Shown here one piece after another: positions 5,075 to 44,090 of a DNA stretch of 64,000 nt; position 1 is the stretch's first letter, and every line of letters begins with the position of its first letter. The stretch spans positions 1 through 64,000 of the forward strand of contig JAEINL010000011.1 in NCBI GenBank assembly GCA_016342655.1. The letters are read 5' to 3'. The translations under genes were made by a program, and so were the position numbers. The DNA comes from Sphaerochaeta sp. (lineage in GTDB: Bacteria; Spirochaetota; Spirochaetia; Sphaerochaetales; Sphaerochaetaceae). A model generated the notes under the pieces. That model had not been told where the DNA came from, did not search any database, and saw nothing but the letters and a program-made list of their open reading frames with translations.

Positions 5075-5189
5075 AATGAAAGGTATCAATACCCCAGGGC
5101 AAGCCCTGGAAAGAGGAGGCGTTGCCTCCTTTTCCGAGCCAAGGGGCTCACGTATCTCACCTTGCTTTCCCGGCACTCGCTCGGTAATG
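5075..5189 (+). repeat. Multi-hairpin dispersed repeat, copy 1 (3'-truncated)
   Basis: First of three same-orientation copies. It begins AATGAAAGGTATCAATACC and contains the hairpins GGTAT-CA-ATACC, CCAGGGC-AA-GCCCTGG, GGAGGC-GTT-GCCTCC and GAGCC-AAGG-GGCTC, then a conserved unpaired stretch and CACTCGCTCGGTAATG. It stops there, lacking about 40 bp of the distal part present in copies 2 and 3. It sits between the ferredoxin gene and its terminator. Confidence 0.85.
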
Positions 5190-12442: not shown

Positions 12443-12506
12443 AATATATTAGTATAACCTATTGAAACCGAATACAGAAAGCAATACTATCCTTGGGAGG
12501 GACCTC

Positions 12507-13512
12507 ATGGATTACTCGTCATATACAAGGAACAACAAATACTATGCCGGAAGTGAAGAAAAGTTCGGCATTACCATAGATGATGTTGATTACATCATAA
12601 AATTCCAGAAATCTTCGGAAACGGGTCTTCTCAACAACACCATTAGCGAATATATAGGATGCCATATATTCGGCATGTTAGATATGAATGTCCAGAACAC
12701 GTATCTAGGAACCTATCAAGGAAGAAACATCGTCTTGCTGGAAGATTTTATCAAGGAAAACCAGCAGTTCGTACCTTTTAATGAAAGGTATCAATACCCC
12801 AGGGCAAGCCCTGGACCCAGGAGGCGTTGCCTCCTTTTCCGCCCCAAGGGGCGGGGTATCTCACCTTGCTTTCCCGGCACTCGCTCGGTAATGGAAGCAT
12901 GCTTCCGCTACTCTCGCTTCGTTGGGGAATGAAGTGGGAGATTCATCTCTGGAAAATGATCGTGATACGTATCAATACTCCTATACAGACATCATGCAGA
13001 TGCTCACAGAAAACACAAAGCTGACCCAAGTCTCATTAACCATTTCACAGTTCTGGAGAATGTATATCATTGATGCATTAGTAGGAAATTTTGATAGGCA
13101 TGGTGCAAACTGGGGCTTTATCAAAGAAAACAATCACTACACCTTGGCTCCAATCTTTGACAATGGCTCCTGCCTATTCCCTAGGATCCATAGCGATGAA
13201 GCTTGCCTGAGTATTCTGGACGACCAAAAGGAAATTGAAAAACGAATCTACTCGTTTCCAACATCCCAGATAAAACTCTGTAATAAAAAGAGTTCATATC
13301 ATGATATTATATTCAGCCTGCAATTCCCCGAATGCAATAAAGCCTTGCAGGACATCACAAGAAAAACAGATTGCAAGCAGATAGATGCTTTTATTGATTT
13401 AATTGACGAGATCAGTGGAATTCAGAAAAGGTTCTACAAAACCATCATCAGGGAACGGTATGAAAAGATCCTTCTGAGTTCCTATGAAAAACTACTAAGG
13501 GAAACAGTATGA
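12507..13512 (+). pseudogene. HipA-like Ser/Thr kinase gene interrupted by a palindromic repeat
   Basis: The N-terminal part (from MDYSSYTRNNKYY) and the C-terminal part (GNFDRHGANWGF catalytic loop, APIFDNGSCLFP metal-binding DFG-like motif) are in different frames. Between them lies repeat copy 2. AATGAA occurs at 12780-12785 and again at 12928-12933, 148 bp apart; removing 148 bp joins the two frames exactly and gives a 285-residue protein of normal length for short HipA/CtkA-type kinases. RBS GGAGG sits six bases before ATG 12507. As it stands the first reading frame runs about 49 codons into the repeat and stops, so the kinase is very probably inactive unless the two halves complement. 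The stop overlaps the next gene by four bases. Confidence 0.85.
12780..12930 (+). repeat. Multi-hairpin dispersed repeat, copy 2 (inside the HipA-like gene)
   Basis: Full-length copy of about 151 bp. Same hairpin order as copy 1, but the fourth stem is CCGCCCC-AA-GGGGCGG instead of GAGCC-AAGG-GGCTC: both arms changed together, which keeps the pairing. It continues past CTCGGTAATG into a fifth hairpin GGAAGC-AT-GCTTCC and ends CTTCGTTGGGGAAT. Its insertion shifts the host frame (148 is not a multiple of three). Confidence 0.9.
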
Positions 13513-14324
13513 GTTTAAATAGAGAATACACCACGCCTGTCTCACCTGCACTGAACAAGATATACAGTATCTCGGGGGAAATCTGCTTTGAGTATACGAA
13601 GAAGACCTTGTTCAAAGTCGCCAGGATCACCTATGAGTTGTTTGAAGACGAATCGTACCAGTATATATTTGAACCCTACTATGATGTCATTGACGGACTG
13701 GAACATGTTGACTGGGGAGGAATCCCCGGCATCGAAATGACAAATCGACAAAAGCAGTATTACAGGACCAGCATGATCCCAGTATTCATAAGTGAACGCA
13801 CTCCCTCTGCAAACAGGGTCAATCTCCAGGAGGAGTTGCGTGAAGCCAACCTTGAGTATCTGGACAGATTGGAATGGCTCATCAATACCGATACCGTATA
13901 TTCTGGCGATAGCCTAGTTGTAAAAAAAGACGGATTCAATTCCTTTTCCGGCATTTCTAAGCGAAGTGCTCAATGGCATGCCCTTTCAATTTTACAACTG
14001 TTGGGGATGAGACAACCAATCGAGATCGATGGCAAACTTTTCAAGGACAGCGACCGTAGTCTGCTGATTAAGACCTTCCTCATTGAATATGAGTTCCTTT
14101 CGACAAAACGAAAGGAAAACCAGAACATAGGCCAGCTCCAAGCAAAGGAAAAAGGCATCTATACTGGGAGAAAACCGATTAAGGTACCGTTACCCTTGTT
14201 GGATGAAGTGAGGAAAAAACTCTCTTCTGGGCAGATAACCCTGCATGAAGCACTGCACATAACCAATCTTTCCAAGGCAACCTTGTACAGGAAATTCAAG
14301 AAGCTGGAAGAGTCTCAAAAATAA
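13509..14324 (+). CDS. HipA-partner protein of unknown fold with C-terminal resolvase-like HTH
   Basis: 271 residues, ATG overlapping the stop of the HipA-like gene by four bases. Residues 1-210 match no family I can name; TPVSPALNKIYSISGEICFEY looks like a conserved start. Residues about 215-268 (GIYTGRKPI, then LLDEVRKKLSSGQITLHEAL, then NLSKATLYRKFKKL) resemble the helix-turn-helix of serine resolvases/Hin without any recombinase catalytic domain. Position and DNA-binding end suggest it is the transcriptional autoregulator or antitoxin-like partner of the kinase. The reading frame is intact even though the kinase is broken. Function inferred from context only. Confidence 0.6.
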   Translation: MSLNREYTTPVSPALNKIYSISGEICFEYTKKTLFKVARITYELFEDESYQYIFEPYYDVIDGLEHVDWGGIPGIEMTNRQKQYYRTSMIPVFISERTPSANRVNLQEELREANLEYLDRLEWLINTDTVYSGDSLVVKKDGFNSFSGISKRSAQWHALSILQLLGMRQPIEIDGKLFKDSDRSLLIKTFLIEYEFLSTKRKENQNIGQLQAKEKGIYTGRKPIKVPLPLLDEVRKKLSSGQITLHEALHITNLSKATLYRKFKKLEESQK

Positions 14325-32311: not shown

Positions 32312-32470
32312 AATGAAAGGTATCAATACCCCCAGGGCAAGCCCTGGAAAGAGGAGGCGTTGCCTCCTTTTCCGAGCCAAGGGGTTCACGTATCTCACCT
32401 TGCTTTCCCAGCACTCGCTCGGTAATGGAAACATGGTAATGCTTCCACTACTCTCGCTTCGTTGGGGAAT
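32312..32470 (+). repeat. Multi-hairpin dispersed repeat, copy 3
   Basis: About 159 bp, from AATGAAAGGTATC to CGCTTCGTTGGGGAAT, 30 bp upstream of the cytidylate-kinase-like start codon. All four proximal hairpins are present; the fourth is GAGCC-AAGG-GGTTC (one G-T pair). The fifth region differs from copy 2 by GGAAACATGGTAATGCTTCC, with only its ends pairing. Intergenic and possibly part of the kinase leader or promoter region in reverse orientation. Confidence 0.9.
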
Positions 32471-32542
32471 CAAATCACACCTATAGGGTAAACAGTGCAC
32501 TAGGCGCTGTCAAGGAAGCGAGGAGGCTTTGGGTGTTGTTTT

Positions 32543-35581: not shown

Positions 35582-35675
35582 AAAGGGGCTTTTCCCTTGG
35601 GAAAAGCCCCAAAGCAGAGAGAAAATTACGTACAATCCATTTTCATGTAAGCAAGTGCCTATACTGAATACAGCA
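35582..35675. repeat. 94-bp direct repeat, left copy (glnN 3'-end duplicate)
   Basis: Matches 43997-44090 over 94 bp without gaps and with about four mismatches. It carries the last codons of glnN (Leu-Tyr-Ser-Val-stop on the minus strand), the region after the stop, and the terminator hairpin. It bounds the ABC transport operon on the left. Confidence 0.9.
35585..35610 (-). terminator. Terminator of the ABC-transporter/BtpA operon
   Basis: GGGGCTTTTCCC-(TT)-GGGAAAAGCCCC, a perfect 12-bp stem, followed on the minus strand by TTTCTCTATG. It is part of the duplicated glnN segment. Confidence 0.75.
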
Positions 35676-43996: not shown

Positions 43997-44090
43997 AAAG
44001 GGGCCTTTCCCAAGGGAAAAGCCCCAAAGCAGAGAGAAAATTACGTACAATCCATTTTCATGTGAGCAAGTGCCTATACTGAATACAGCA
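43997..44090. repeat. 94-bp direct repeat, right copy, with glnN terminator
   Basis: Partner of 35582-35675. It covers the last glnN codons (44074-44090), the intergenic part, and the hairpin GGGGCCTTTCCC-AA-GGGAAAAGCCCC (44000-44025), which on the minus strand is followed by TTTTG and acts as the glnN terminator. Confidence 0.9.

Follow-up and report, generated by a model that had tools for sequence, protein, structure and literature searches.

How did a run of short hairpins come to lie inside a HipA-like kinase gene of a Sphaerochaeta species, and what could have moved it there? We addressed this question in a 64,000-nucleotide stretch of DNA (hereafter the window), which is contig 95 of a 3.9-Mb genome in 161 contigs; Sphaerochaeta halotolerans 4-11 (G003) served as a relative from the same genus. 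A first-pass annotation had listed three same-orientation copies of the hairpin repeat, starting at 5075, 12780, and 32312, and all three were recovered in a single orientation. Copy 2 (148 bp, 12780..12927, minus strand) and copy 3 (156 bp, 32312..32467, minus strand, with the target TTGATT at 32468-32473) are complete. Copy 1 (5075..5188, end approximate, minus strand) is present at 5075 and lacks its left end, which the annotation had taken for the right end: the transposon polarity is the reverse of that first assigned, with the window's minus strand as the active one. Neither an ORF nor terminal inverted repeats were found in the 148- to 160-bp element, in keeping with its initial description as gene-free and without classical terminal repeats. 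The window also contains an unrelated 94-bp direct repeat (35582-35675 and 43997-44090, two copies, 96% identity) with a AAAGGGGCTTTTCCCTTGGGAAAAGCCCC hairpin at its start.

The interrupted kinase gene and the ends of the element

The N-terminal part of the kinase (12462..12932, plus strand; ORF list and orthologues L169/L170) is read in a frame that enters the element and then stops, and the C-terminal part (12922..13512, plus strand) matches HipA_C (PF07804, E=2e-11). In relatives, the intact kinase has 291 aa (PF07804 HipA_C, E=7e-17), and orthologues without the insert occur in two congeneric genomes (L169 and L170, ~70% identity), whose sequence runs uninterrupted across the insertion point as ...CCTTTCAACGAA|GTGGGGGAC.... 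The two flanks were matched to the orthologue separately, not joined inside the gene; the left blastn match ends at 12785 and the right one starts at 12928. These matches share 6 bp of the orthologue, so the element adds exactly 148 bp net. This confirms the annotated length against intact orthologues in two relatives, and the frame restored on its removal agrees with their intact frame of 291 aa. The annotation had also considered that sister strains might all share the interruption, with an empty site nowhere; sister species do have empty sites. The insertion has disrupted the HipA-like kinase gene in the window. An intact relative of this kinase matches PADLOC candidate-defence models (PDC-M03A, E=3e-30). 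In the window, an adjoining ORF follows the kinase at 13509-14324 (12462-14324 for both together), so the element may have inactivated a pair with a defence or toxin-antitoxin-like function.

Read on the minus strand, the element takes the form TNATT | CCCCAACGAAGCGAG ... GGTATTGATACCTTTCATT |. Its ends were examined in a first sample of 67 copies and then in a larger sample of 91 left and 107 right ends. The left flank reads T (75/91), T (89/91), N, A, T, T, followed by CCCCAACGAAGCGAG, with ATT in 91/91 copies. The right end is ATACCTTTCATT, with TTTCA in 107/107 copies, and its terminal TTTCATT is near-invariant, at most 4 of the 107 copies differing at any base. Flanks beyond the left target and the right terminus are random. 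In copy 2, the right end GGTATTGATACCTTTCATT occupies 12780..12798 (minus strand), its TTTCATT being the element's own, CR-like terminus, and the identical 19-mer is found in genomes of several families. The CL-like target TTCATT (12928..12933, minus strand; consensus TNATT from the target logo and other empty sites) lies outside the element at its left end, and the intact orthologues carry AACGAA (plus strand) at the matching six bases. The AATGAA noted on both sides of copy 2 is thus real, but the two sides are not equivalent. The one on the left of the window, already suspected to be element sequence, is near-invariant in the 107 copies and does belong to the element; the one on the right is a variable target (AATGAA, AATCAA, or AATAAA among copies) already present in empty sites. 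The right TTTCATT is near-invariant and the third base on the left (the N of TNATT) varies independently, so the two are not a duplicated target. The left TNATT is a pre-existing target, and the right TTTCATT terminates the element.

We also searched for further empty sites by BLAST of copy flanks against DNA fetched from around the copies. Six more copies proved to have a clean empty site; in these sites ATT (mostly as part of TNATT) was present beforehand and is directly followed by the right flank. Examples read ...GCAATTTTATT GCCAATC... at L146 (an IS605-type tnpA locus), ...CACCTTCATT CTTACAGG... at L157, ...TTGTTTATT GCTAGTAC... at L149, and ...TATTGATT GCATTTTC... at L303, in each case with the element exactly between the two parts and nothing duplicated. 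A copy upstream of an IS605 tnpB (L152) is consistent with the same boundaries when compared with the uninterrupted paralogues L062 and L063, and the pairs L112/L307 and L020/L212 align less cleanly, the target not being shown. A 6-bp target duplication was rejected on account of the unmatched flanks of other copies and the empty sites without duplication. A MITE moved by a DDE transposase, with AATGAA as its 6-bp target duplication, would explain the kinase site, which AATGAA flanks on both sides; it is nevertheless scarcely credible, given that one AATGAA is invariant while the other varies independently among copies, that terminal inverted repeats are absent, and that empty sites show no duplication. 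The intergenic location of many copies might instead suggest an ancestral, immobile intergenic sequence amplified by gene conversion, but the precise empty sites refute this reading, gene interruption and strand bias (see below) also speak against it, and we regard it as exceedingly unlikely. Among left-truncated copies in G000, 8 of 22 begin between element positions 33 and 42, immediately ahead of the second GCGAG motif (ATT|ACCGAGCGAG), a start that may reflect alternative left cleavage.

Fold and replication-strand bias

Folding of the minus strand with RNA parameters predicts a stem-loop on the left and, on the right, a cloverleaf-like domain of three hairpins, and DNA-parameter folding of the plus strand gives local hairpins. 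The left-end domain of copy 2 (12866..12927, minus strand; helices 1-3 of the pair counts) comprises a TTCCC:GGGAA stem, in which the two T of TTCCC are target bases, an apical GGAAGC hairpin, and two GCGAG motifs. The cloverleaf-like domain (12785..12866, minus strand; helices 4-9) comprises an AAGGT:ACCTT foot, an ATACC:GGTAT stem, and three short hairpins. Covariation was counted in 36 copies from 16 genomes; RNAalifold by itself gave a poor right domain, and a hand structure of 42 pairs, derived from a single-sequence fold, was counted instead. In this structure 93.3% of cells are paired, compared with 43-62% when it is slid by 1-3 columns, the former percentage being somewhat favoured by the structure having been taken from one of the counted sequences. 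Changes on both sides occur in 16 of the 42 pairs, and none of 500 shuffles reaches any of the measures. The difference in both arms of stem 4, read in the annotation as compensatory and as a sign of a maintained fold, proved real, and the pair counts indicate that compensatory changes maintain the multi-hairpin fold.

Homologues retain AACGA(A)GCGAG, CCGAGCGAGTGC, AAGG..ATACC, and the right end, and their internal hairpins differ in number and sequence, from a single one in a ~70-bp element (L171, G017) to long arrays in G101. In the latter, one of the family f3 genomes, the right domain has grown into long arrays of repeated hairpins (L352, L353). Two copies in G238 (L339, L377) carry an extra tandem left end ending in CCTTTCAT, and look like the outcome of one element's insertion into, or recombination with, a second one.

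The orientation of 113 copies was surveyed, in 61 regions with a combined length of 1.02 Mb. Their transposon strand is G-rich in 93 cases and C-rich in 20; in regions with |skew| >0.03 the figures are 64 and 5 (binomial p about 4e-14). Gene direction was rejected as the cause of this bias: among copies flanked by co-directional genes of the opposite strand, orientation agrees with the skew in 15 and with the genes in 0. The transposon strand coincides with the lagging-strand template, an assignment made because the G-rich strand is assumed to be the leading-strand sequence in this genome, of which the parental copy is that template. IS608 and ISDra2 likewise use the lagging-strand template for transposition (PMC6006769).

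These data also bear on the reading that the element is transcribed into a structured RNA with a role in regulation, decay, or guiding, its copies having spread secondarily and its fold serving the RNA. In its favour, the element pairs covary strongly, RNA-parameter folding beats shuffles on both strands (z about -3.3), and G-U pairs occur in the fold, so that pairing as RNA is possible. However, no Rfam family was found at gathering or permissive thresholds and no promoter- or terminator-like signal was detected; orientation tracks replication rather than transcription (15 versus 0), and the free variation of hairpin number and sequence between genomes suits a single-stranded DNA structure. 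We therefore consider an RNA function improbable as the explanation for the element. Integron attC sites, which the GTTGGGG end and the same-orientation copies could recall, were dropped by inference, given that the copies are oriented with replication and that empty sites show no arrangement of cassettes.

Copy number, distribution, and recent activity

A 25-base element pattern has 148 matches in the genome of the window at ≤3 mismatches, compared with 0 for a reversed control, and the 19-base right end GGTATTGATACCTTTCATT has 162 matches at ≤2 mismatches, so the genome-wide count is about 160 copies. By blastn, the element is present in 14 of 60 relatives, including members of other families. 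Among 395 Spirochaetia genomes, right ends number 85 in G003, 62 in G056, 35 in G238, 33 in G360, 32 in G085, and 15 in G010; a few more genomes are positive and most have none, giving a patchy distribution across the class, with isolated two-mismatch matches occurring at about control level. No match was found in phages, plasmids, or viral contigs. G393, which has a RAYT, and G060, which has none, each contain one degenerate copy.

Of 86 full-length copies in the genome of the window, 15 are identical to another copy, and the median nearest-neighbour identity is 0.981; values are mostly 0.97-0.99 in G003 and 0.87-0.96 in G056. Judged by these identities, the element has multiplied recently in the genome of the window and looks inactive in G056. 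With empty sites, ~160 copies, near-identical recent copies, and a conserved fold, the original view of a mobile, non-autonomous, REP/RPE-like palindromic element holds.

A candidate enzyme and relation to known systems

The element shows the hallmarks of Y1 HUH transposition: a fixed short target 5' of the insertion, no duplication, lagging-strand bias, and subterminal structures at both ends. It is a non-autonomous DNA transposon, and very probably one that transposes in single-stranded form along the IS200/IS605/RAYT route. In the proposed mechanism, the active strand (minus at copy 2) would become accessible on the lagging-strand template as the fork passes and would fold into the left stem-loop and the cloverleaf-like right domain; a Y1 enzyme would cut 3' of TNATT on the left and 3' of TTTCATT on the right, and the excised piece would be joined 3' of a new TNATT without duplicating the target. 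That a Y1-class enzyme moves the element is very likely, and the best candidate for it in this genome, at roughly even odds, is a RAYT linked to dprA.

This protein, L060 (270 aa), is the only intact full-length member among seven PF01797 matches in the genome of the window, the others being broken IS200/IS605 genes. It contains the motifs HYH and YIVRNPVKAG (YxxxNP) of the RAYT Y1 core, although its match to the NCBIfam RAYT model falls below that model's cut-off, and a C-terminal HTH-like region, with HTH_23 likewise below cut-off (0.027 in L060; 2e-4 in L203). A sequence search of the PDB gave E. coli TnpA-REP (4ER8) as its sole relative. In domain content, L060 resembles RAYT subclass 2.1 (TIRYT), to which Bertels group 1 reportedly corresponds. 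Its gene directly follows dprA, as it does in close relatives within the genus and in G037, G360, and G393. The annotation had envisaged a RAYT-like or other transposase with matching ends; the genome has a single intact RAYT, and no element flanks its gene.

Among the 395 class genomes, a RAYT above 150 bits is present in 15, the element in 14, and both in 11, that is, in 11/14 element-bearing genomes versus 4/381 others (Fisher p=6e-16, phylogeny being ignored and the genomes not being independent lineages). Two of the 11, G085 and G238, have a distant RAYT without linkage to dprA; only distant RAYTs occur in these two and in G029. Genus members without a RAYT match (G002, G006, G007, G009, G018) have no element by covariance model. 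The correspondence has exceptions on both sides: G005, G016, G020, G024, and G280 are RAYT-positive (G020 and G024 by partial matches) and lack the element even by covariance model, and G056 (with older copies), the incomplete G021, G064, and G101 are rich in the element without a close RAYT. In genus g36, the sole RAYT of G238 is a second one, which carries an in-frame TAG, and the classifiable copies of this genome are all of type B (8/8); G360 has both RAYTs, its copies read being 8 of type B and 1 of type A; these few data are suggestive of a second RAYT paired with a second element type. We hold in even balance the fuller proposal that a dprA-linked, HTH-bearing, subclass 2.1-like RAYT, of a class with no described REP-like substrate, acts in trans to move a long multi-hairpin element with two distinct ends, a domesticated transposase maintaining an asymmetric transposon family by vertical inheritance, with a second RAYT and element type in one genus.

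The main rival is a classical IS200/IS605 TnpA, with the element being an ordinary PATE whose parent IS has decayed or been lost. L058, the remnant of an IS200-type copy in this genome, has similar ends (...ATT|CCCC on the left, GATACC-hairpin-TTCATT on the right), as does its relative in G057 (TTAATT|CCCC and TTTCATT), and Haloquadratum PATEs are known in a genome without an intact IS200-type tnpA (PMC3119063). On the other hand, an intact IS200 tnpA is absent from this genome, yet some element copies are identical; across 60 relatives, IS200 TnpA tracks the element poorly, with weak matches in element-free and none in several element-rich genomes. The comparison of parent ends gave only a short likeness to decayed IS200 ends in L058 and L130, and neither an autonomous element sharing the left-end sequence nor a larger version of the element with the common left end was seen. 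We judge this alternative plausible but less likely than the RAYT. The IS605/TnpB loci of this genome were rejected as parents, their ends not matching.

Compared with known systems, the element shares with the PATEs of Haloquadratum (PMC3119063) and Halanaerobium (PMC7290912) its short, gene-free form, near-terminal palindromes without inverted terminal repeats, a conserved terminal oligonucleotide, and a 4-5-bp target at the 5' end, following IS605-type logic without duplication. It differs in its cloverleaf-like multi-hairpin right domain, in having no parent IS605 with common ends that we could find, and in having a RAYT as candidate mover; its strong strand bias also contrasts with the absence of bias in Halanaerobium IS605 elements (10/22). 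With REP/BIME/REPIN and RAYT systems (TnpA-REP, such as E. coli 4ER8), it has in common many hairpin repeats and a single-copy, apparently non-mobile Y1 gene; however, it measures 148-160 bp with distinct left and right ends rather than forming 20-40-bp palindromes, it lacks the conserved GTAG/GTGG foot of GTAG/CGTC REP (only some copies contain GTAG, and G003 is among the genomes that lack it), and the arrangement differs from a REPtron in that no repeat flanks the RAYT gene. L060 has a Y1 core and a putative C-terminal HTH_23/HTH_28-like region, resembling the description of subclass 2.1 (PMC6006769), but TIRtrons have inverted repeats (GGGGWSAS) around the gene, whereas the L060 gene lies directly behind dprA and the element copies are scattered through the genome. 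IS608 and ISDra2 (IS200/IS605) similarly have a target 5' of the left end, no duplication, and a lagging-strand template, but encode TnpA inside the element; the Sphaerochaeta element encodes none and is not an IS. No description of this family in Sphaerochaeta was found in the open-licence literature searched, and the element, PATE/REP-like in kind, appears to transpose in the manner of IS200/IS605 elements and PATEs.

Quentin et al. reported that automatic and manual searches near subclass 2.1 genes gave no REP-like sequences and that some of these genes are TIRYTs (PMC6006769, PMC3733652). Subclass 2.1 RAYTs are a large group, and a candidate substrate makes the question of their substrates directly testable. 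The element is abundant, natural, and recently active; its ends are defined, a single-copy RAYT is the candidate enzyme, and strains of the genus are in culture, among them S. halotolerans 4-11 with its 85 right ends. It also offers a structured, gene-free family whose ends are kept across bacterial families while internal hairpins change freely. At the RAYT locus itself, the 3' part of the gene is repeated ~3 kb downstream at 92% identity (L060, L213; G000:C13:15250-19253), with a serine-recombinase-like ORF in between, and a similar repeat lies about 5 kb downstream in G005 (L214); an integrative element seems to use the 3' end of the RAYT gene as its attachment site.
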